Of a stretch of DNA of 64,000 nt, positions 47,795-58,022 are shown piece by piece; position 1 is the first letter of the stretch; each line of letters begins with the position of its first letter. The position numbers and the translations under genes were made by a program. This stretch comes from Winogradskyella sp. (GTDB taxonomy: Bacteria; Bacteroidota; Bacteroidia; Flavobacteriales; Flavobacteriaceae). The notes below the pieces were generated by a model. That model had not been told where the DNA came from. It was given only the letters and a program-made list of their open reading frames with translations, and made no database searches. The DNA lies in NCBI RefSeq assembly GCF_028289625.1, contig NZ_JANQOM010000039.1, positions 1 to 64,000 of the forward strand, read 5' to 3'.

Positions 47795-49192
47795 TTATTT
47801 TAAACTCCCTACCATATCCTCGGGTTTAACCCATTCGTCATATTCCTCAGCGGTAACATAGCCTAAATTAATGGCTTCCTCTTTTAAGGTCGTACCATTT
47901 TTATGGGCGGTGTTTGCAATCTCAGCCGCTTTATAATAACCGATTTTTGTGTTTAAAGCGGTGACTAACATTAATGAGTTATTGAGCAATTGTTTTATGA
48001 CGGAATGGTTAGGCTCAATACCAATAGCACAGTTTTCCTCAAAGCTGACACAAGCATCACCAAGCAGTTGTGCCGATTGCAGAATATTGGCAGCCATTAC
48101 TGGTTTAAAGACATTAAGCTCATAATGGCCTTGCGTACCACCAACACTAATCGCAACATCGTTACCCATCACTTGGGCACAAACCATGGTTAAGGCCTCG
48201 CATTGTGTAGGATTCACTTTTCCTGGCATTATGGAACTACCAGGTTCGTTGGCAGGAATAATAATCTCACCAATACCAGAACGTGGACCAGAGGCCATCA
48301 TTCTAATATCATTGGCTATTTTATTTAAGGAAACGGCCAATTGCTTTAAAGCTCCATGCGTTTCTACAATTGCATCATGCGCAGCCAAGGCTTCAAATTT
48401 GTTTTCTGCAGTGACAAATGGTAAGCCTGTAAATTCAGCGATGTATTTGGCAACTAATACATCATAACCTGCAGGTGTGTTGAGTCCGGTGCCTACAGCG
48501 GTACCACCTAAAGCGAGTTCACTTAAATGCGCTAAGGTATTTTCCAAGGCTTTTAGACCATGATCCAATTGCGAAACATAACCTGAAAATTCTTGGCCTA
48601 AAGTCAATGGTGTGGCATCCATAAGATGTGTACGCCCGATTTTTACGCAATCCTTGAATTCCAAAGCTTTCTTATGAAGCGTGTTTCGTAATTGGATTAC
48701 GCCTGGAATGGTGGTTTCTACCACTTTTTTATAGGCGGCAATATGCATCCCAGTAGGGAAGGTATCGTTAGACGATTGCGATTTATTAACGTCATCGTTT
48801 GGCTGAATGGTTTTATCCCCTTCACCTATCACTTTACCTGCAATTTGATGGGCTCTATTGGCAATGACTTCATTCACGTTCATATTGCTTTGTGTCCCGG
48901 AACCCGTTTGCCAAATCACTAAAGGAAACTGATCATCATGCTGACCATCCAAAATCTCATCACAGACTTGGGCAATGAGATTGCGTTTGTCTTTATCTAA
49001 AACGCCTAATTCGCAGTTGGCATAGGCTGCTGCTTTTTTAAGATAGGCAAAACCATACACCACTTCTAATGGCATTGAGGCTGGTGTTCCAATTTTAAAA
49101 TTATTACGCGAACGCTCGGTTTGTGCTCCCCACAATTTATCGGCAGGTACCTTAACCTCGCCCATGGTATCTTTTTCTATTCTGTATGACAT
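47795..49192 (-). CDS. fumC: Fumarate hydratase class II
   Basis: Interconverts fumarate and malate in the TCA cycle. The 465-residue protein has [25 protein letters not shown] substrate segment (residues ~185-205), and the superfamily signature [15 protein letters not shown] with its catalytic Ser. Length matches class II fumarases and the enzyme needs no iron-sulfur cluster. A putative promoter -7 element lies at 49217-49224 on the minus strand. It borders the orphan cassette array upstream. Confidence 0.96.
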
Positions 49193-49408: not shown

Positions 49409-49417
49409 GTTAGCAAC
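49409..49417 (+). repeat. Left boundary of cassette 1 (attC-like terminal sequence)
   Basis: GTTAGCAAC is exactly complementary to GTTGCTAAC at 50417-50425, the start of the palindrome that follows the first orphan gene. No left half of an attC-like site is clear upstream, where a degenerate ATAAGT...ACTTAT pairing occurs at ~49342-49366. Confidence 0.5.
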
Positions 49418-49432
49418 AAGCAAAAGAAAACT

Positions 49433-50410
49433 ATGGAAGAAAACAACATCTTACCAAATAATCCAGAGCATAGCGGACAGGTATCATTACCTTTCAATGA
49501 AAACCAGTTTAAGGATTTCATTGTAAGTTTATTAGGTAAACCTCAAACTATTACAAAACATTTAAGAGGTAAGTTTGAAATAGACAAAAATAATCTTACA
49601 AGTATCTTTGAAATAATTAACCAACGGATTTACCAACAGAATGATGCTAAACTCATACAATTTAGAGCATCAATTTATTATAATGACAATACAACTGTAA
49701 CTTTAAATGGTTATGACCATTTGGTAAATTATAATGAGAAACTACCTTTAATTTCTCAAGCAGTTCATTTAACTTGGCAATATTTGGTGAAATTTAAAGA
49801 TAAGGGCTCTTTTGAAAAACAAGAGATTGCTCTTTCATTTATTACTGAAACAGACGGATCTGTTCCTTTTGTGGATGAAACATTTGCTCGACCATATTAT
49901 GACAGTGGAGTGAGTTTTAGAATTTCTCATACTGGCAGAACTTGGGGTGCTGATATAGAAGCCATTTTGACTAAACACCTTGAGACTTTAGTTCAAAAAG
50001 AATCAAAATTCGTACGCTTTTTTAAATATAATAGCGATAGTGCAAATCACGTTTTATCTGCAATATTAGTTGGAATCACTTTGTTCTTTGCCATTTTTAG
50101 AACTGAAAGATTGAGACTTATTAATGCCAATAATGAAGATTCTCTATTTTGGATTCATCATTATGGGAGTTATATTTTTTTATTTTTTGGAATATACTTT
50201 TTGTATAGGATAACTATGATTCTACTCGAAGAATTTCAGTATTATGGCGCACCAAGTTTCGTTCTGTTAACACCCGAAAGTGAAAAGTATAAAACTAAAA
50301 GACTATCGAGTTATAGAAAAGAGGTGTTTAAATATATTGGGACTTTAGTTATTAGTATAATAATAGGCTTGGTTACAAATATACTTTACAATCACTTTTT
50401 GAATAAATAA
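49433..50410 (+). CDS. Orphan cassette gene 1: membrane protein, unknown
   Basis: A 325-residue protein with an N-terminal soluble domain (about 1-200, beta-rich) and three hydrophobic segments near the C-terminus (about 205-222, 240-262, 298-318). No family is recognised; there is no signal peptide. It is the first of four same-strand genes separated by attC-like palindromes, with unit boundaries GTTAGCAAC and GTTGCTAAC complementary at 9 of 9 bases. An accessory, exchangeable function is plausible but unknown. Confidence 0.75.
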   Translation: MEENNILPNNPEHSGQVSLPFNENQFKDFIVSLLGKPQTITKHLRGKFEIDKNNLTSIFEIINQRIYQQNDAKLIQFRASIYYNDNTTVTLNGYDHLVNYNEKLPLISQAVHLTWQYLVKFKDKGSFEKQEIALSFITETDGSVPFVDETFARPYYDSGVSFRISHTGRTWGADIEAILTKHLETLVQKESKFVRFFKYNSDSANHVLSAILVGITLFFAIFRTERLRLINANNEDSLFWIHHYGSYIFLFFGIYFLYRITMILLEEFQYYGAPSFVLLTPESEKYKTKRLSSYRKEVFKYIGTLVISIIIGLVTNILYNHFLNK

Positions 50411-50416
50411 AAGCCA

Positions 50417-50552
50417 GTTGCTAACAATGGCTATAATTCATTGCTATGAATAAACTAAAAACAAAATAACTAAATTTATTTCGGCTGATTTCTACGGTTG
50501 AAAATCTATCGATTTTCTTACCACAACGAAATCATAGCCGAGACCGTTGTGC
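50417..50552 (+). repeat. attC-like palindrome B (between cassette genes 1 and 2)
   Basis: A 136-bp imperfect palindrome. The left arm is GTTGCTAAC-AAT-GGCTATAATT and the right arm AATCATAGCC-GAGACC-GTTGTGC, so the GGCTATnATT parts pair and the outer parts pair loosely. A GAAAATC/GATTTTC stem is in the centre. The ends behave as in integron attC sites: the left end pairs with the start of cassette 1 and the right end with the end of cassette 2. The strict GTTRRRY consensus is not met. Confidence 0.6.
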
Positions 50553-50570
50553 TGAATTAGAATCATAAAT

Positions 50571-51200
50571 ATGGAACAAGAATTACTTAAATCACTTGGT
50601 CAAATTGCTGGATTAGCAGGAATTGTGTCTGGAATAGCTTTAATACTCTTTAGACAGATAATTCAAAAACAATTCTTCTCAAGTCTTACGAAAAAGCACT
50701 CGTATAGAATAATTTTAACTATAACGATAGCTGTATGGACAATTGCTCTTGCAGGAATTGGAGCTTGGGCCTATGTTGAAATCAATGGCAAAAAACCTAT
50801 TGAAACTACCTCTGAAGTATCATTAGATTCATTTAAACTACCAATAAATACGGGATGGGTGTTTGTCGGATATTTTGATATTGACAAAGAATTTTGGACT
50901 GAGGGTCCCTATATATCGATAATAGAGACTAATTCAAGGGGACAGCGTAACTACGTTGAAAAGGGAGACATAGTTCAAATGAAGGTTTCAAGTGATTTAA
51001 TTGTGAATAATTACAAAAATAGTGGAATGAGTCAAGCTTTTGTTTCACCAGTTCAAGATGAACATCTGAATCCAGCAGATTATACCGATTTTAAAGTTCC
51101 AACAAATTCGAAATGGTTAGTCAGAGATGTTCAAGAAGGCTCATGGATTGGAAGTCCACAGGCTGGTATGTGGATTAGAATTGTAGATATTCCAGAGTAA
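50571..51200 (+). CDS. Orphan cassette gene 2: membrane-anchored protein, unknown
   Basis: A 209-residue protein with two hydrophobic segments (about 8-30 and 46-68), followed by a ~130-residue beta-rich domain that could be an SH3-like fold (residues ~85-205, with GWVFVGYFD and GMWIRIVDI). No close family is recognised. Unit boundaries GTTGTGCTGA (50546) and TCAGCACAAC (51204-51213) are complementary at 10 of 10 bases, which defines it as a separate cassette. Confidence 0.75.
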   Translation: MEQELLKSLGQIAGLAGIVSGIALILFRQIIQKQFFSSLTKKHSYRIILTITIAVWTIALAGIGAWAYVEINGKKPIETTSEVSLDSFKLPINTGWVFVGYFDIDKEFWTEGPYISIIETNSRGQRNYVEKGDIVQMKVSSDLIVNNYKNSGMSQAFVSPVQDEHLNPADYTDFKVPTNSKWLVRDVQEGSWIGSPQAGMWIRIVDIPE

Positions 51201-51203
51201 AAC

Positions 51204-51262
51204 TCAGCACAACAAAACCTAAACTGCATTAAAACGTAGTTTAGCCAAAACCGTTAGGTGCA
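51204..51262 (+). repeat. attC-like palindrome C (between cassette genes 2 and 3)
   Basis: A 59-bp element and the best match to a canonical attC. The left end is GCACAAC, the inner CTAAACTGC/GTAGTTTAG pair at 8 of 9 positions, and the right core GTTAGGT satisfies GTTRRRY. Its size fits the known attC range. Confidence 0.65.
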
Positions 51263-51278
51263 ATTTGGAAATTCAATT

Positions 51279-51824
51279 ATGAAAAAGAATCTTTTGATAA
51301 TTACAATTTTACTAATTGGAATTATAGCAGTCTATTTTCTTGAATTGAACGACCGACTTTATAATAATGGAGATGGATTTTCTTATATGACTTTTATAGA
51401 TAACGAATATCGTCTTGGAGATGAGAAAAAAGACAAAGATTATCCTAAAGAACTTTACAAACGGAATTTTCTAAATGAGGACTATAAATTTCCAAGAATT
51501 AAAGTGGATGATATCAAAATATATAGGAATGTACCTTTTGTTAGTAGACTAACTGGTAAAAGTTTGTCAGAAAATCAAAGACTCGAAGTACAAAAGTTCT
51601 TTAATTCACCAGAAAATTTTGATTGGGCTGAAACTACTTGGACTTTAAGAGAATCTGACTATATTTTGCGCTTTTTTAACCAAGAACAAGTTGAAATTGG
51701 AAAGGTATGGCTTTGTTTAAATAATTGCGGAATGACATTCTCAAATCCTTTTTCACTGAATATGAAATTTGGAAGTTTGAGTAATGCTGGAATTAAAAAA
51801 ATAGAATCAATACTTAAATTATAA
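51279..51824 (+). CDS. Orphan cassette gene 3: small anchored protein, unknown
   Basis: A 181-residue protein with an N-terminal hydrophobic anchor or signal (about residues 5-22; MKKNLLIITILLIGIIAVYF), then a charged, Asp/Lys-rich domain. No family is recognised. The start ATG at 51279 is preferred because the signal follows directly. The unit starts with GTTAGGTGCA (51253) and ends near CTAAC (51828-51832); complementarity is weaker (5 bases, GTTAG with CTAAC) than in cassettes 1 and 2. Confidence 0.7.
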   Translation: MKKNLLIITILLIGIIAVYFLELNDRLYNNGDGFSYMTFIDNEYRLGDEKKDKDYPKELYKRNFLNEDYKFPRIKVDDIKIYRNVPFVSRLTGKSLSENQRLEVQKFFNSPENFDWAETTWTLRESDYILRFFNQEQVEIGKVWLCLNNCGMTFSNPFSLNMKFGSLSNAGIKKIESILKL

Positions 51825-51827
51825 AAA

Positions 51828-51966
51828 CTAACCACAATAACGGCTATAGTTCATAGCGGCTTAAATTCCAACTCTGAATTCCTTGCAATTTGCTATCTTT
51901 AATCCACGGTGGAATATCACTTCGTGTCATCAGGCAACGAAGCCATACACAAAACCGTTGTAATAC
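51828..51966 (+). repeat. attC-like palindrome D (between cassette genes 3 and 4)
   Basis: A long imperfect palindrome. The left part has AACGGCTATAG, and the right part GAAGCC followed by AAAACC-GTTGTAATAC (GTTG starts at 51957). It shares the GGCTATA motif with sites B and E and the ACC-GTT right boundary with sites B and C. Confidence 0.5.
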
Positions 51967-51976
51967 TTTATAAAAA

Positions 51977-52645
51977 ATGCTATTCTACAGTAAAAATTCA
52001 AAAGCCATTTCATTAGACGAAATTAGAATTGAGTTAATTCAATTAATATCTAATCAGTTAAGCCAAACTAGGAATCAAAACGAATTACTTCTATGGATCA
52101 ATGAAACCAACTCTTATGTTTCCTGTCATTGGTATGATTCGGAAAAAGGAATTACCGATGATTCTGATAATTATTCTGTAGTTGAATTTGACGAACTACA
52201 AGATTTGGAACTAGAAGACATAGATGGCTTTTATGAAAAAATACTAAATGCCTTAAAAACATTCTCAAGCGATACTTTCAAAAATCAAAATATTGATAAT
52301 GCCAGTATTTATGAAAGTGATGAAATAGACGAGCCAACAAAAATTATTGAAATAGAAAAAGGGAGTTTAAAAATAATTGAATCTACAAAAGAAGATTGGA
52401 AAAATAATCTCATTAAAGAGATTGAAAATAATGAAATTTTAACCGAAGAATTCAAAAAAAAGAAATTAATTCTTTGGTTAATTAGAACAATAATTGCTGT
52501 TATTCTATATATTATATTTTGGAAGTATGAGTGGGTGAGGTGGTCATTATTAATCTATATTCCACTAAATTTATTTTCGTTGTTATCTATTTTCTTTTGG
52601 AGAAATTTAATTGGTAAAAAATTGAGCAAAATAAAAAATAAATAA
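51977..52645 (+). CDS. Orphan cassette gene 4: membrane protein, unknown
   Basis: A 222-residue protein with an acidic, soluble N-terminal part (about 1-150) and two C-terminal hydrophobic segments (about 166-182 and 188-208). No family is recognised. The unit begins GTTGTAATAC (51957) and ends GTAGTACAAG (52648-52657), complementary at 8 of 10 bases. Like the other three units it is on the + strand with its palindrome downstream. Confidence 0.7.
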   Translation: MLFYSKNSKAISLDEIRIELIQLISNQLSQTRNQNELLLWINETNSYVSCHWYDSEKGITDDSDNYSVVEFDELQDLELEDIDGFYEKILNALKTFSSDTFKNQNIDNASIYESDEIDEPTKIIEIEKGSLKIIESTKEDWKNNLIKEIENNEILTEEFKKKKLILWLIRTIIAVILYIIFWKYEWVRWSLLIYIPLNLFSLLSIFFWRNLIGKKLSKIKNK

Positions 52646-52941
52646 CGTAGTACAAGAATGGCTATAAGTAACTACTTTTATTAGTCTAACTTTTACTTAA
52701 TCTACAGTCTTCCCATCCAAATCGTCAGCTTACAACTCGCTATATTTTAACATCGTCGCTTCGCGCTGATTTTCAATTTTTTAGTTGAAAAACAAGACCA
52801 TCTGTATTCCGAAAACGATATAGTTAATAATTTTTTTATTATTGACGTTTAATTAACGTTGGTTTTCTCTTGATATTGAAGGAAATACCATAATTTTGCA
52901 CCCTCAAAAAAATAGTATAAAACAACTATAAAACGTATCAA
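52646..52941 (+). repeat. attC-like half-site E and leader of the amidoligase operon
   Basis: A 296-bp region with no gene. The first ~180 bp hold a degenerate attC-like structure: GTAGTACAAG-AAT-GGCTATAAG (52648 onward), a CGCTTCGCG segment, a TTTTCAA/TTGAAAA stem (52770-52791) and a possible right boundary GTTAATA near 52823. The last part holds the promoter of the following operon (52870-52898) and an AT-rich leader. Confidence 0.5.
52870..52898 (+). promoter_or_regulatory. Bacteroidota-type promoter of the amidoligase operon
   Basis: TTG (52870-52872), an 18-base spacer and TAATTTTG (52891-52898) match the flavobacterial consensus well. The first start codon (TTG 52942) lies about 43 bases after the -7 element. 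It marks the start of an independent operon after the cassette array. Confidence 0.7.
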
Positions 52942-53646
52942 TTGAAAGAAGAATATTTTAAGTGGTATTCGCCAACACTCAGTAAGGATATAGAAATGCT
53001 TGTTTTTGGTCATCAAGGGTATCCTGTAATCTTGTTTCCTACAACTGGGGGTCAGTATTACGAGTGTAAAGATAGAGGTTTAATAGAATCTGCAAGGTGG
53101 TTTTTGGAGCAAGGTTTGGTTCAGATTTATTGTCCGGATAGTATAAACGATATGAGCTGGTACAATAGAGGTCTGCACCCTGCTGACAAAGTAAAAAATC
53201 ATATATGGTATGATACGTTCATCTTAAATGAACTGGTCAATAAAATTTGCCAAGAGAAGCAGATGCACAAAGTTGCTGTTGCAGGCCCAAGTTTTGGTGG
53301 CTATCAAGCCGCAAATTTTGCGTTTAGACATCCAGATCGCGTGAGCCATATGTTTAGTATGAGTGGTGCATTTGACATAAAGTCGTTTTTGGATGGCTAT
53401 TACGATGATAATGTGTATTTTAACAATCCAGTGGACTATTTGCCAAATGCTAACCATCCAGATTTATGGCACATGAAAATTGTTCTTGGAGTCGGTGAGT
53501 GGGATATTTGTTTAGATGCCAATAAGCATATGGCTAAGATACTCTCAGATAAAAATATACCATTTTGGCATGATGAGCGTAAATGGGCAGAACACGATTG
53601 GCCGATATGGTGCCAAATGTTTCCACATTATTTATCAAAAATTTAG
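52942..53646 (+). CDS. Esterase-like alpha/beta hydrolase
   Basis: A 234-residue alpha/beta hydrolase of the esterase-D/putative esterase type. The nucleophile elbow is GPSFGGYQA (Ser about 119), and a late EHDWPIWCQMFP segment carries the likely catalytic His. It has no signal peptide, so it should act in the cytoplasm. It starts at TTG (52942); no ATG precedes the conserved sequence. It is the first gene of a cluster of peptide- or amide-forming enzymes and may hydrolyse or transfer an ester on their product. Confidence 0.85.
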   Translation: MKEEYFKWYSPTLSKDIEMLVFGHQGYPVILFPTTGGQYYECKDRGLIESARWFLEQGLVQIYCPDSINDMSWYNRGLHPADKVKNHIWYDTFILNELVNKICQEKQMHKVAVAGPSFGGYQAANFAFRHPDRVSHMFSMSGAFDIKSFLDGYYDDNVYFNNPVDYLPNANHPDLWHMKIVLGVGEWDICLDANKHMAKILSDKNIPFWHDERKWAEHDWPIWCQMFPHYLSKI

Positions 53647-53676: not shown

Positions 53677-54711
53677 ATGAAAAAAATAGGAATACTATTT
53701 GGTCAAGAAGATACCTTTCCATGGGCATTTATTGATAGGGTTAATGAAAAGATAAAGGAGCAAGGCATCAAAAACATGATGGCCGAAGCTGTATTGATTG
53801 ACACCGTAGAGCAGGCAAAGTCAGACGAATACGCAGTAATTATAGATAGAATTTCTCAAGACGTACCGTTTTACAGAGCGTATTTAAAGAATGCAGCAAT
53901 CACGGGAACTGCTGTGATTAACAATCCTTTTTGGTGGAGTGCGGATGAGAAGTTCTTTAACAATGCATTAGCTGAAAAAATAGGTGTTCCTGTACCAAAA
54001 ACATTTATTCTTCCAACCTCGCACCGACCACAAAATACAGATGAAAATTCATTCAGAAACATGAAGTTTCCTTTCGACTGGGAAAAAATGTTTGATACTA
54101 TCGGTTTCCCTGCATATATGAAGCCTCATGATGGTGGAGGCTGGAAAAGTGTTTATAAGGTTGAAAATCCTGAAGATTTATGGGCTAAACATGGCGAAAC
54201 CGAGCATTTGGTAATGATGCTACAGGAAGAAATTCAATTTACCGAATACTTTAGATGTTATGTTCTAGGAACAGATAATGTCCATATTATGCAATACGAA
54301 CCTAGGAATCCACATCATTTGCGATATGTCATCGATGGTCCTCCTGTGGATAAAAAGCTATTGAATTTAGTGGAAAAGTACTGTATAAAGCTCAATAAAG
54401 CCTTGGGTTATGATTTTAATACCGTAGAGTTTGCTGTAAGGGACGGAGTGCCTTATGCCATTGATTTTTGTAACCCAGCGCCAGATGCAGATATACATTC
54501 CGTAGGTCAGGACAACTTTGATTGGATTGTTGAAAATGCTGCGAATATGGCTATTGAAAAGGCGAAACAATACAAAAAGGGAAAAATGAATCTCACTTGG
54601 GGAACATTTGTAACGAATCAAATATCAGCTCCAAAAACAGCAGCCAAAAAGACTCCTGCTAAGAAGCAAACGACGAAGACAACTAAGCGGGCATCTGCCA
54701 AGAAAAAATAA
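53677..54711 (+). CDS. ATP-grasp domain protein with lysine-rich C-terminal tail
   Basis: A 344-residue protein. A RimK-like ATP-grasp fold is suggested by FPAYMKPHDGGGWKSVYKV (ATP-binding loop, around residues 145-160), a glutamate-rich LVMMLQEEIQFTEYFRCYVLG segment, and NTVEFAVRDGVPYAIDFCNPAPDAD with metal-binding Glu/Asp/Asn. Members join a carboxylate to an amine using ATP. The last ~30 residues are Lys/Thr/Ala repeats like histone H1 or PBCV-type tails, which is unusual for this family. It follows the esterase gene by 30 bp. Confidence 0.85.
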   Translation: MKKIGILFGQEDTFPWAFIDRVNEKIKEQGIKNMMAEAVLIDTVEQAKSDEYAVIIDRISQDVPFYRAYLKNAAITGTAVINNPFWWSADEKFFNNALAEKIGVPVPKTFILPTSHRPQNTDENSFRNMKFPFDWEKMFDTIGFPAYMKPHDGGGWKSVYKVENPEDLWAKHGETEHLVMMLQEEIQFTEYFRCYVLGTDNVHIMQYEPRNPHHLRYVIDGPPVDKKLLNLVEKYCIKLNKALGYDFNTVEFAVRDGVPYAIDFCNPAPDADIHSVGQDNFDWIVENAANMAIEKAKQYKKGKMNLTWGTFVTNQISAPKTAAKKTPAKKQTTKTTKRASAKKK

Positions 54712-54770
54712 GAGAACTGTAGTCATGTATTTAAAAGATCATGTTTGGAAAGTCAAAAATTACTTAAATC

Positions 54771-54842
54771 TGTCACATTGAGCGCATTCGAAATGCATTA
54801 AAAGTGCGTGCTAAAGATTTCTCGAAGAGGCTCGAAATGACA
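54771..54842. repeat. REP-like element before the carboxylate-amine ligase gene
   Basis: Ends TGTCACATTGAG (54771-54782) and CTCGAAATGACA (54831-54842) are imperfect inverted repeats. The left part closely matches a half-element at 59305-59329. Confidence 0.65.
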
Positions 54843-54888
54843 TCAATATGAGCTTTTCAAAAAGCACCTTAATTAATCAACTAAACAT

Positions 54889-55983
54889 ATGAAGTTTACA
54901 TTAGGTATCGAAGAAGAATACCAGGTCATTGATCCTGAAACAAGAGAGTTGGTTTCCCATGACCAGAAAATTGTTGTTGAAGCTGAGAAGGTTTTGGGCG
55001 AACAGGTTAAAGCAGAAATGCACCAAGCTGTTGTTGAAGTAGGTACCAATATATGTCAGGATATTACCGATGCGCGTCAACAGATTAAACATCTTCGTCA
55101 ATCCATATCCAATATTGCTAATGATTTAGGGTTCAATATTGCAGCAGCAGGGACACATCCATTTTCAAAATGGGAAACACAACTATTGACGCCGAATCCT
55201 AGATATGATGAAATCATTAATGAACTACAAGACACCGCTCGTTCTAATTTAATTTTTGGCCTGCATGTGCATGTAGGTATTGCGGATAGGGATTTAGCAC
55301 TTCATATTTCCAATGCCATGCGTTATTTTTTACCGCATATTTACGCACTATCATCCAACTCACCATTTTGGGAAGGTAGAAATACAGGCTTTAAATCATT
55401 TAGGTCTAAAGTATTTGACAAATTTCCGAGAACAGGAATTCCTGGGATTTTTGACAACTATGCACAGTACCAAAATTATGTGGATACGCTTGTAAAAACG
55501 AGATGCATAGACAATCCGAAAAAAATATGGTGGGATATTCGAATACACCCAACGTACCCAACGATTGAAGTACGTATTTGTGATGTGCCAATGACCTATG
55601 AAGAAACCCTAAGTATAGCAGCTTTGATTCAGGCTTTGGTTGTAAAGTTGTACAAGTTGAAGTGTCAAAATTTAAACTTTATCATTTACCACCGAGCGCT
55701 TATCAATGAAAATAAATGGAGAGCCAGTCGTTATGGTTTGGGAGGTAAAATGATAGATTTCGGAAAACAGACCGAAGTTGCTACTACTGTTTTAATGGAA
55801 GAACTTTTGGACTTTATTGATGATGTAGTTGATGAATTGGGCTCGAGAAATGAAGTAGAAAACGTTCGCCAAATGCTTAAAAAAGGCACTGGAGCTGATC
55901 GTCAGCTAGAAGTTTATGAAGAAACAAAAGACCTCACTAAAGTTGTTGACTATATTAAAGAACAAACAATTTTAGGCCTATAA
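54889..55983 (+). CDS. Glutamate-cysteine ligase type 2 (YbdK-like) carboxylate-amine ligase
   Basis: A 364-residue member of the GCS2 family. It opens with TLGIEEEYQVIDPETREL (ATP/Mg-binding Glu residues), has GLHVHVGIADRDLALHISNAMRYFLP with metal-site His, and NPKKIWWDIRIHPTYPTIEVRICDVP. The reaction by family is ATP-dependent amide bond formation between a carboxylate and an amine; the natural substrates are unknown. Its place next to two ATP-grasp-like enzymes suggests a multi-ligase pathway. It is separated from the preceding ATP-grasp gene by a REP-like repeat. Confidence 0.92.
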   Translation: MKFTLGIEEEYQVIDPETRELVSHDQKIVVEAEKVLGEQVKAEMHQAVVEVGTNICQDITDARQQIKHLRQSISNIANDLGFNIAAAGTHPFSKWETQLLTPNPRYDEIINELQDTARSNLIFGLHVHVGIADRDLALHISNAMRYFLPHIYALSSNSPFWEGRNTGFKSFRSKVFDKFPRTGIPGIFDNYAQYQNYVDTLVKTRCIDNPKKIWWDIRIHPTYPTIEVRICDVPMTYEETLSIAALIQALVVKLYKLKCQNLNFIIYHRALINENKWRASRYGLGGKMIDFGKQTEVATTVLMEELLDFIDDVVDELGSRNEVENVRQMLKKGTGADRQLEVYEETKDLTKVVDYIKEQTILGL

Positions 55984-55998
55984 TTACCTACAATAAAA

Positions 55999-56817
55999 AT
56001 GACAGAAAAAATAAAACTGGCTATCTTGGATATGAACGATGCAGAACCCAATCAAGGGTTGCGCTGCATTGAGGAAATTGTCCAAAAATTTCAAAGCGAG
56101 ATAGAATACAAGATATATGATGTTAGGGCAAAAAATGAAATTCCGAATAGTTCCTATGATATTTATATATCCAGCGGTGGTCCAGGAAGTCCCTTAGAGG
56201 ATGAGGCATGGCGACAACCTTATCTAAATTTGATGCAAGAGCTTTGGGATTTTAATAAATCATCAACCCATCAAAAAAAGTATGTGTTCTTTATCTGTTA
56301 TTCATTTCAGGTGATTTGCGATTATTTCCAACTGGGAGACGTAAAGCCTCGACGTAGTACTTCGTTTGGCATCTTACGCGTACATAAAACCAAAAAAGGA
56401 CACAACGATCTAATCTTAAAAGAACTTAATGACCCATTTTATGCCGTTGATTCGAGGGATTGGCAATTGGTACAGCCCAAGCTTACGGTTTTTAAGAAGC
56501 ATGGAGCCGAAATTTTGAGTTTAGAAAAAATCAGAACTCATGTTGAACTGGAGCGTGCCATTATGGCCGTACGTTTTTCGGATGAATTTGTGGGGACTCA
56601 GTTTCATCCAGAAGCTGAACCTGTTAGTATGGAGGCATTTTTTAAGCTAGAGGAGAATAAAAAAATAGTTGTAGAAAGCTTTGGAGAGGAAAAGTATGAC
56701 CAAATGATGGATAGGGTAGATGACCCTGACAAGTTATTTATGACTTACAATACCATTATTCCGAGGTTTATTCAAAATGCAATTACTCAAATAAAGCAAC
56801 CTTTAATGTCAGACTAA
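55999..56817 (+). CDS. Class I glutamine amidotransferase-like protein
   Basis: A 272-residue protein with the GATase-I catalytic triad region: SSGGPGSPLEDEAW (oxyanion loop), FFICYSFQVIC with Cys nucleophile about residue 98, and FVGTQFHPEAEP with His/Glu. The family releases ammonia from glutamine, or acts on gamma-glutamyl amides. In this cluster it could supply amide nitrogen or hydrolyse a gamma-glutamyl intermediate. It lies 15 bp after the GCS2 gene and 2 bp before the next gene. Confidence 0.9.
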   Translation: MTEKIKLAILDMNDAEPNQGLRCIEEIVQKFQSEIEYKIYDVRAKNEIPNSSYDIYISSGGPGSPLEDEAWRQPYLNLMQELWDFNKSSTHQKKYVFFICYSFQVICDYFQLGDVKPRRSTSFGILRVHKTKKGHNDLILKELNDPFYAVDSRDWQLVQPKLTVFKKHGAEILSLEKIRTHVELERAIMAVRFSDEFVGTQFHPEAEPVSMEAFFKLEENKKIVVESFGEEKYDQMMDRVDDPDKLFMTYNTIIPRFIQNAITQIKQPLMSD

Positions 56818-56819
56818 CA

Positions 56820-58022
56820 ATGATAAAGAATGTAAGAGCTGCATATAACCAGAACTTTTCTGAGGATAAGTACCAAGCCTTATTAAAGGATATCAATGAC
56901 GCATTTAGTTATGATGTAAGGTTTAAGATTGCCGAAACTCCGATTTTTATTCCCAAAACCCTAAAGGAAAAGCTGATTGAAGCCTGTGAAGATATTATGA
57001 AGGTTATTAATCAGCCCAACTTTAAGGATTTAACGCGAGGCGCTTTTTTTGATGAAAATTCTATTGTTCCTAATGAAGATGAACGGCCAAAGTTTATACA
57101 ATTGGATTTTGGAATCTGTAAGGATGAGCACGACGAACTAGTGCCTAAGTTAATTGAATTGCAAGGATTCCCATCACTATATTTTTTTCAAGAACTTTTA
57201 GGTAGAATGCATAAAAAGCACTTTGGCGATAACATTCCAAAGGCTTATTCACAACATCCCAATGGAATGACGACGGAAGAATATATTGCGCTTTTGCGAA
57301 CTGAAATCGTCGGTGACACCGATCCGAAACAAGTTGTTTTATTGGAAGTGGAGCCACATGAACAACCCACAGCTATTGATTTTTATGCTACTGAAGCCAT
57401 ACTGGGCATTAAGACAATTGATTTTACGGATTTAATTAAAAAGGGTAAGCAACTGTTCTATAAAGATGAAAATGGTGAAGTGGTACGCATCTTAAAGATA
57501 TATAATCGTATTATTTTTGATGAACTACACCATCGAAAGGACATCAAAGGAGAATTTAAGTTTCAGGATGAAGTTGATGTGGAATGGATTGGGCATCCTA
57601 ATTGGTTTTTTAGGATTAGTAAGTACACCATGCCTTTATTGAACGGTAAATACATACCAAAATCGTATCACTTAGACAAGTTAGAGGATATACCCGAAGA
57701 TCTTGAAAATTATGTGTTAAAGCCATTATTTTCTTTTGCGGGCTCAGGTGTGCATATTAATGTAACCCGAAATACCATTGAAAGTATTGCTAATAAATCC
57801 AATTATTTACTACAGGAAAAGGTTGCTTATACGCCAATTATAGAAACCATGGATGTGCCTGCAAAATGTGAAATCCGTATGATGATGGTTCATAATAGTA
57901 AAACAGACAGCATAGAAATTGTTAGCAATTTGGTGCGCTTAAGTAAAGGGGAAATGGTAGGAGTTAAATATAATAAGGACAAAACTTGGGTTGGTGGTAG
58001 TACTGGTTTTTTTGAGAATTAA
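56820..58022 (+). CDS. Putative ATP-grasp-like protein, unknown
   Basis: A 400-residue soluble protein. The C-terminal half has features of an ATP-grasp fold: YVLKPLFSFAGSGVHINV (Lys and a Gly-rich loop) and an LLQEKVAYTPIIETMD segment, with CEIRMMMVHN and IEIVSNLVRLSKGE beyond. The N-terminal half is unassigned. I am fairly sure it is an enzyme of the cluster because it starts two bases after the amidotransferase stop. Substrate unknown. It may be the glutathionylspermidine-synthase-like type of ligase, which is inference. Confidence 0.7.
   Translation: MIKNVRAAYNQNFSEDKYQALLKDINDAFSYDVRFKIAETPIFIPKTLKEKLIEACEDIMKVINQPNFKDLTRGAFFDENSIVPNEDERPKFIQLDFGICKDEHDELVPKLIELQGFPSLYFFQELLGRMHKKHFGDNIPKAYSQHPNGMTTEEYIALLRTEIVGDTDPKQVVLLEVEPHEQPTAIDFYATEAILGIKTIDFTDLIKKGKQLFYKDENGEVVRILKIYNRIIFDELHHRKDIKGEFKFQDEVDVEWIGHPNWFFRISKYTMPLLNGKYIPKSYHLDKLEDIPEDLENYVLKPLFSFAGSGVHINVTRNTIESIANKSNYLLQEKVAYTPIIETMDVPAKCEIRMMMVHNSKTDSIEIVSNLVRLSKGEMVGVKYNKDKTWVGGSTGFFEN

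Follow-up and report, generated by a model that had tools for sequence, protein, structure and literature searches.

Probable cassettes of an integron-like Bacteroidota system at the fumC-esterase junction of a Winogradskyella genome

Introduction

Four consecutive genes located between fumC and an esterase gene, in the 64-kb stretch of Winogradskyella DNA analysed here (the window), are very probably cassettes of an integron-like system of the Bacteroidota, inserted at this junction away from an integrase. This large gene-shuffling system, integron-like but found beside a different kind of recombinase, is apparently undescribed, as no description of such a Bacteroidota system was found in the open-licence papers of PMC.

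Organization of the fumC-esterase locus

A sequence-only reading of the window had proposed four same-strand genes between fumC, on the minus strand, and the esterase gene, separated by palindromic sites. This arrangement is confirmed by the open reading frames and by the matches of a covariance model, R1, trained on 72 sites that all come from other loci. The features of the locus are the following:

47795..49192, minus strand: fumC, left chromosomal neighbour and conserved flank (ORF, named by sequence reading)
49409..50425, plus strand: putative cassette 1, own ends GTTAGCAAC / GTTGCTAAC, 9/9 paired
49433..50410, plus strand: ORF 1, 325 aa, membrane protein on reading by eye
50416..50555, plus strand: attC-like site B, R1 E 5.2e-12, 120-nt core, outer R boxes and inner L boxes
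50546..51213, plus strand: putative cassette 2, own ends GTTGTGCTGA / TCAGCACAAC, 10/10 paired
50571..51200, plus strand: ORF 2, 209 aa, membrane protein on reading by eye
51204..51262, plus strand: attC-like site C, R1 E 2e-5, short type, core of about 39 nt
51253..51838, plus strand: putative cassette 3, weak own-end pairing (CTAAC only)
51279..51824, plus strand: ORF 3 (the ORF list starts it at GTG 51258)
51829..51966, plus strand: attC-like site D, R1 E 8.6e-10
51957..52655, plus strand: putative cassette 4, own ends GTTGTAATAC / GTAGTACAAG, 8/10 paired
51977..52645, plus strand: ORF 4, 222 aa, membrane protein by eye, weak DUF2207_C match under the Pfam cut-off
52646..52799, plus strand: terminal site E, apparently decayed, left half GGCTATAAG kept, right half shrunk to ..ACAAGACC
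52942..53646, plus strand: esterase ORF, right chromosomal neighbour and conserved flank

In the whole 64 kb, R1 finds exactly three sites, each at an inter-gene junction and on the strand of the genes, the next match having an E value of 0.94; an Rfam scan of the window gave no match. Site E stays below significance in the covariance model (4.9 bits), the left border of the array is not a full site, and the native flank seems to resume from position 52800 (ATCTGTATTCCGAAAACG), which by eye resembles the flank of the related locus L007. The motif GGCTATA, proposed as common to the sites, is present in B, D and E but not in the short site C. The short type of site C also occurs in locus L053. 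A literal pattern, GGCTATA..ACCGTT, was dropped because of its matches inside genes and in the control: it had four matches in the own genome, at least two of them inside genes by eye, and three in the control.

The proposed complementarity between the first and the last bases of each unit stands for units 1, 2 and 4, but not for unit 3, whose five-base CTAAC pairing is not beyond chance and lies 6 bases out of register; in the register expected from the model the word is TAACCACAAT and the pairing 2/7. Decay seems to have affected both unit 3 and the terminal site. Chance own-end pairs of 9 bases are in fact common: 26 per strand turn up in the 64 kb on a simple scan, and a slightly different cut gives 38 own-end pairs versus 42 in the control. 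The signal that exceeds chance is the set of three R1 matches at the junctions.

Gene content turns over at this junction. A tblastn search with the FumC protein returned matches beside the esterase in eight relatives of the genus and none of the eight carries the four genes there; the conserved gene order in relatives that the sequence-only reading had named as refuting the cassette model was thus not found. Between fumC and the esterase, L009, L010 and L013 have 257-373 nt, and L011, L012 and L014 have 450-465 nt. The nearest relative, L007, with an esterase 92% identical, holds one different cassette, whose ends GTTGGGCATT/AATGCCCAAC are paired 10/10 and which has an R1 match at 4.7e-14.

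The genes themselves are sparsely distributed. ORF 1 has 94 relatives in a protein set of 5.8 billion, and occurs in the own genome only among 68 genus genomes and in 3 of 397 family genomes, with weak matches in two; ORF 2 is present in the own genome only, that is, in 1 of 249 family genomes. For ORF 4, seven relatives were found in the set of 5.8 billion and matches in 6 of the 68 genus genomes, the five besides the own one being partial, and model sites were absent from the five fetched loci with partial matches. By these searches, therefore, the window's own cassettes were not traced to another array.

A family of sites in arrays across the Bacteroidota

The genus, placed in the Flavobacteriaceae by its nearest named relatives, carries the sites in all 17 genomes searched, with 12 to at least 122 per genome and 46 in the own genome. 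The palindromes thus occur genome-wide; the sequence-only reading had held that this would refute the cassette model if they lay away from gene boundaries. However, 45 of the 46 own-genome sites have no overlap of more than 30 nt with an ORF of at least 100 aa, whereas 82% of random stretches from the same regions overlap one. The sites form chains of up to 17 units (control maximum, 3), with inter-unit gaps that pile up at 117-121 nt; the hairpin core, too, mostly measures 117-121 nt, with further classes at about 180 and 40-55 nt.

Arrays headed by a recombinase are found in relatives of the genus and in other Bacteroidota, including a plasmid of Rufibacter tibetensis. Recombinase and downstream cassettes read on the same strand, and the array starts about 28-180 nt past the recombinase stop in the loci compared (about 300 nt in L112); with regard to a possible attI next to the integrase gene, the first cassette begins, in 6 of 20 loci, after TATAACNAG, shortly past this stop. 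A Persicobacter plasmid has one model site and no clear chain. One cassette of 830 bp is found in several genomes beside other neighbours.

Candidate cassettes were picked by own-end pairing of at least 8/10, in sets of 448 and 160 units, some of which are chance pairs and whose mean own-end values are high because of this selection. Own-end pairing looks identical from either strand; the larger set is free of units read on both strands and of a false pair located around 31 kb in the window. Its longest ORFs run forward in 360 units and in reverse in 31, while 57 have none of 50 aa, and median ORF coverage is 0.90. Many of the cassette genes are of unknown function and a few are defence-like; one protein set comprised 80 listed proteins, minus three (one false call and two duplicates), plus two ORFs of the window.

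The recombinase linked to the arrays

Several recombinase types occur near arrays. The alignment of the array-linked type (A1) holds 17 of 20 fetched proteins, after removal of a near-duplicate, one of 278 aa and one cut at a contig end. Profile alignments show that these proteins lack the IntI insertion. Specifically, when the profile is aligned to 2a3v, IntI4 has 63 residues between two matched stretches versus 20 in the profile; in a comparison over a longer stretch, 11 IntI-clade proteins have 297-322 residues and the array-linked ones mostly 255-299, and the profile matches of the IntI-clade proteins break there. In the tree, the IntI clade (11 rows, support 100/99) excludes the array-linked Bacteroidota proteins. 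The L043 protein scores 218.8 bits against TIGR02249 (cut-off 265) and 226 bits against the XerA/XerC/XerD-type model NF040815 (cut-off 220). The system seems to behave like an integron, yet falls outside the IntI type by the insertion, the profile score, the clade and the core site.

These findings make it very improbable that the window holds a classical CALIN, in which an ordinary IntI integrase, later lost, would have put canonical attC sites in place. The same own-end pairing is indeed seen in classical loci (from Pseudoalteromonas, Vibrio, Pseudoduganella and others), where some units likewise depart from the GTTRRRY start. Moreover, within the literature cited here (PMC8618304, PMC9668308, PMC8138268, PMC2426708 and PMC9024848), reviews and other papers list Bacteroidota among the integron-bearing phyla, and the IntI insertion is called essential for integron function, yet is reportedly not fully conserved in its subgroup (PMC8138268). 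Against such a classical origin, besides the structure and phylogeny of the recombinases, TIGR02249 exceeds its cut-off in none of 60 genomes of relatives, five classical integron loci are devoid of R1 matches at E 0.1, and GTTRRRY starts only 23 of the 448 candidate cassettes (15 of 160 in the smaller set), classical units having been counted differently. The sequence-only reading had offered two interpretations, integrase-less attC sites or a related cassette system of Bacteroidota; the latter agrees best with the data, because the site family is found in Bacteroidota and its arrays follow a recombinase other than classical IntI.

We consider it equally improbable that host XerC/XerD, or another recombinase, moves the sites and that the array-adjacent recombinase is there by coincidence. 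The variety of recombinases near arrays speaks for this possibility, as do three site-bearing genomes (the own assembly, G255 and G257) with no A1-type match at E 1e-80; it is contradicted by the arrays that start shortly past the recombinase stop, on its strand, at many loci, including the Rufibacter tibetensis plasmid. Under the preferred reading, the integrase that served the window array probably acted in trans, or has since been lost or is missing from the assembly. Phage records gave no recombinase match at E 1e-40.

In addition, the array-linked recombinase bears an N-terminal extension of about 95 residues, whose predicted fold is b-b-a-b-b-a-b. Its best score against HARP (PF07443) is 18.4 bits, under the gathering score of 25; the top Foldseek rows include 4o66 and archaeal XPB entries, while 4o66 is missing from the 50 rows of a second structural search, and a sequence search against PDB chains gave nothing useful. 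The domain may be weakly HARP/XPB-DRD-like.

Strand asymmetry and complementary ends

The site alignment A2 comprises 72 of 88 listed sites, after removal of near-duplicates, of L049 and L112 and of two L088 sites (other families). The stem covaries, with a score of 0.288 versus 0.112 when shuffled and at most 0.110 when slid. On A2, the top-strand stem mismatches are A.C in 179 cases and G.T in 2, which indicates that it is the bottom strand that folds. Predicted DNA folding agrees: in 295 of 300 sites the bottom strand has the lower value (292 for the core alone). In 292 of 300, too, predicted folding is better for the own circle than for the array form, an advantage due in part to the selection of units on own-end pairing. 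The sites display attC-type features: an imperfect inverted repeat, AAC/GTT outer boxes and predicted bottom-strand folding.

The unit-specific pairing noted by the sequence-only reading holds in an unbiased version of the own-end count, limited to units defined by model-found sites: in 87 of 99, the two ends agree at no fewer than 5 of the 7 variable bases, versus 18.8% with the ends of other units. Among homologous cassettes, 13 of 14 changes at the start are mirrored at the other end.

Ordinary intergenic repeats among resident genes (terminators, REP-like elements, chance palindromes) can practically be dismissed, since, even if hairpins between same-strand genes resemble terminators and simple 9-base pairs arise by chance, a hairpin in RNA should accept G.U but not A.C, the opposite of the mismatch counts, while the two ends of a unit, although separated by hundreds of bases, correspond to each other rather than to those of other units, and the gene content of the junction turns over.

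Proposed mechanism and implications

We infer that the recombinase acts on these sites, that a single strand is exchanged and that the N-terminal domain has a role. Each cassette has GTTR and free sequence at the start and the complement at the end, after which comes the hairpin core; its circle would carry one complete hairpin. Once single-stranded, the bottom strand would fold into a near-continuous stem, in which the top-strand A.C mismatches would become G.T wobbles. The tyrosine recombinase, devoid of the IntI insertion and with its possibly HARP/XPB-DRD-like N-terminal domain, would bind the folded site and exchange a single strand at the GTT end, leaving replication to complete the process. 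Cassettes could in this way be cut out, shuffled and inserted anew, either next to the integrase or at secondary sites, the fumC-esterase junction being one.

A broader proposal, which we judge to be evenly balanced, is that Bacteroidota harbour a further lineage of integrons, separate from those with IntI, in which a tyrosine recombinase with a HARP domain, lacking the IntI insertion, recognises hairpins of single-stranded DNA and drives cassette stores that exceed 100 per genome on chromosomes and plasmids, hairpin-templated copying keeps the ends of each cassette complementary, and hairpin cores are swappable between genes. If the mechanism is true, the phylum has a large cassette system that may escape tools based on IntI and its attC model, and nature provides a test for an alternative to the IntI insertion.

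Comparison with known systems

A CALIN is defined by at least two attC sites spaced within 4 kb and no integrase; the window has three R1 sites within 1.6 kb, as measured with the model made here, and cassettes without an integrase, the assembly giving no A1-type match at E 1e-80, but differs in that R1 recovers no site in the five classical loci. With simple recombinases of the XerA/XerC/XerD type (NF040815), the Bacteroidota recombinase shares the core-binding and catalytic domains, and is set apart by its N-terminal extension and the cassette arrays downstream. The HARP domain of SMARCAL1 and the N-terminal DRD of archaeal XPB may share the b-b-a-b-b-a-b domain predicted for the extension; the similarity is weak, below the Pfam cut-off, and the recombinase has no ATPase motor.

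Several features are shared with integrons such as the chromosomal arrays of Vibrio: mostly one-ORF cassettes, in tandem and in one orientation; AAC...GTT outer boxes, inner L boxes, own-end complementarity and a folded bottom strand (here predicted); arrays adjoining a tyrosine recombinase, and dispersed integrase-less clusters. Unlike integrons, the Bacteroidota system has a recombinase without the IntI insertion, extended at the N-terminus and outside the IntI clade, outer boxes made of GTTR plus free sequence, and conserved A.C mismatches. Moreover, classical intI is usually divergent from its cassettes, whereas the Bacteroidota recombinase and its cassettes lie on one strand.

Cassette array and junction turnover

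The ORFs found between fumC and the esterase bear out the four same-strand genes proposed by the sequence-only reading (units 1 to 4, 49409..52655, forward strand). A unit is a cassette with complementary end words, and the pairing claimed for these words holds in unit 1 (9/9), unit 2 (10/10) and unit 4 (8/10); in unit 3 the five bases do pair, but fewer than 5 of 7 variable positions match when model-found sites are used. As chance own-end pairs of nine bases are frequent (26 per strand in a scan of the window), independent tests were sought. With a covariance model trained on 72 attC-like hairpin sites from other loci (the site model), the three inter-gene junctions were the sole significant matches in 64 kb.

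Eight genus relatives with the fumC-esterase neighbourhood were compared for the empty or changed junction expected of a cassette locus: none carries the four genes, and gene content turns over. The junction measures 257-373 nt in three relatives and 450-465 nt in three others. In another (L008) it spans 1369 nt and holds an ORF that is hydrolase-like by reading; the model finds no site there at E 0.1. In the nearest relative (L007; esterase 92% identical) it contains a single cassette, with a gene differing from the window's, whose ends GTTGGGCATT and AATGCCCAAC pair 10/10 and whose site is matched by the model at 4.7e-14. Downstream of the esterase (window 53677-58022), ATP-grasp, glutamate-cysteine-ligase-like and related enzymes, read by eye, form a cluster that reads as ordinary chromosomal.

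Own-end pairing and homologous cassettes

Chains of units with self-complementary ends lie downstream of proteins of about 370-415 aa, on the same strand, the longest having 17 units in 20 kb; in a control with the variable bases reversed, no chain exceeds 3. Gaps between units peak at 117-121 nt, with smaller groups at about 180 and 40-55. In an unbiased test on 99 units, defined solely by consecutive model-found sites, own ends agree at no fewer than 5 of 7 variable positions in 87 units (7/7 in 60) and fall short in 12, window unit 3 included; when ends are compared between different units of one locus, this agreement is reached in 18.8%. At L055 13903-15062, one cassette stands in two tandem copies, with 500 bases identical and start and end words alike.

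Among 448 units chosen by end pairing, 15 families of homologous cassettes were found, with end words differing in 9. Of 14 changes in start words, 13 are mirrored by the end word of the same unit, over 6 families (19 end changes in total); this supports the pairing rather than proves it, because selecting units by their pairing favours such matched changes. One 830-bp cassette is shared by genomes G253, G296 and G157 and Algibacter onchidii, with different neighbours and cores; in the A. onchidii copy the end words are altered in step at three positions. Other families retain their cores, and homologous recombination is a possible source of the unlike ones. A cation-efflux-like membrane protein cassette moves between genomes with differing hairpin cores (L054 6332-7181, L058 10965-11815, L069 14522-15371).

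Structure and distribution of the sites

In a structural alignment of the 72 sites, the 25-pair structure, outer box included, has a covariation score of 0.288, against 0.112 for shuffles and at most 0.110 for slid versions; in the two inner helices, 83.6% and 98.6% of cells are paired. Among five covariation measures, that of further pair types was the one not above shuffles. On the top strand, the 16 inner column pairs comprise 943 Watson-Crick cells, 179 A.C, 2 G.T and 27 others, one column pair being A.C in 72/72 sites and another in 63/72. Since top-strand A.C is G.T on the bottom strand, the constrained strand is the bottom one and not a transcript. In predicted DNA folding, the bottom strand does better than the top one at 295 of 300 sites (core alone, 292/300).

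The site model was run on 27 genomes: each of the 17 genus members has 12 to at least 122 sites, the window's own genome having 46, while the 10 genomes from outside the family have 0 to 5 each. The cassette model had been said to fail if palindromes occurred genome-wide away from gene boundaries; 45 of the 46 own-genome sites overlap no ORF (at least 100 aa, by more than 30 nt), whereas such an overlap is seen in 82% of random stretches.

The recombinase, its spread and the cargo

No protein of 60 relatives exceeded the cut-off of TIGR02249 (integron integrase); many proteins of about 370-415 aa matched it in two parts. By Pfam, the tyrosine recombinase encoded just upstream of the arrays has core-binding and catalytic domains and no others. 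A 95-row tree groups 11 classical IntI proteins in one clade (100/99) that contains no array-linked Bacteroidota protein; the array-linked ones are scattered on several branches with weak deep support. The N-terminal extension is repeated in some proteins. Its HARP matches are all sub-threshold (2/10 in one set, 2/17 in another), and DUF5710 has 3 in the 17-protein set. Its predicted structure has a mean pLDDT of 89.9, and archaeal XPB and SMARCAL1 HARP are among its top structural matches (Foldseek E at least 0.08, Z at most 6.8). The DNA recognised by HARP and by the XPB domain is forked or distorted. At L105, L109 and L112 the recombinases measure about 680-720 aa; their N-terminal domain is repeated and part of the core is duplicated, and an array of attC-like sites lies downstream at L112.

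A recombinase match at E 1e-80 is present in 59 of 68 genus genomes, with none in the window's own. The 312 of 395 phylum genomes matched at 1e-50 are no count of the array-linked family, because this looser cut-off admits Xer proteins. The site model has a match at E 0.01 in 14 of 44 named loci, including Winogradskyella ursingii, Seonamhaeicola aphaedonensis, Algibacter onchidii, Zunongwangia mangrovi and a Rufibacter. On a mobilizable plasmid of Rufibacter tibetensis, 8 units are chained behind the recombinase; the Chryseobacterium plasmid NZ_CP041688.1 has a chain of 3 units, and four sites on it score below 1e-4 with the model. Its cassette stretch (L247 16266-20048) also holds genes for an IS110-family transposase and for a group II intron reverse transcriptase, elements of kinds that target attC sites in classical integrons. 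Many sites are also seen on the 242-kb second of two contigs of G253 (C2; L230, L231), possibly a plasmid. In the own genome and G157, 79 cassette proteins match 28 Pfam families at 1e-5, most through one protein, and 14 PADLOC models, one protein each (e.g. SoFic and candidate PDC families).

Relation to classical integrons

Judged from sequence, the Bacteroidota cassette system is integron-like in its working. It fails two defining tests of the IntI integron: its recombinase lies outside the IntI clade and, aligned against IntI4 (2a3v), lacks the IntI insertion. In addition, most of its cassettes depart from GTTRRRY. Own-end pairing is a shared integron property, as classical integron loci fetched with the same query have it too.
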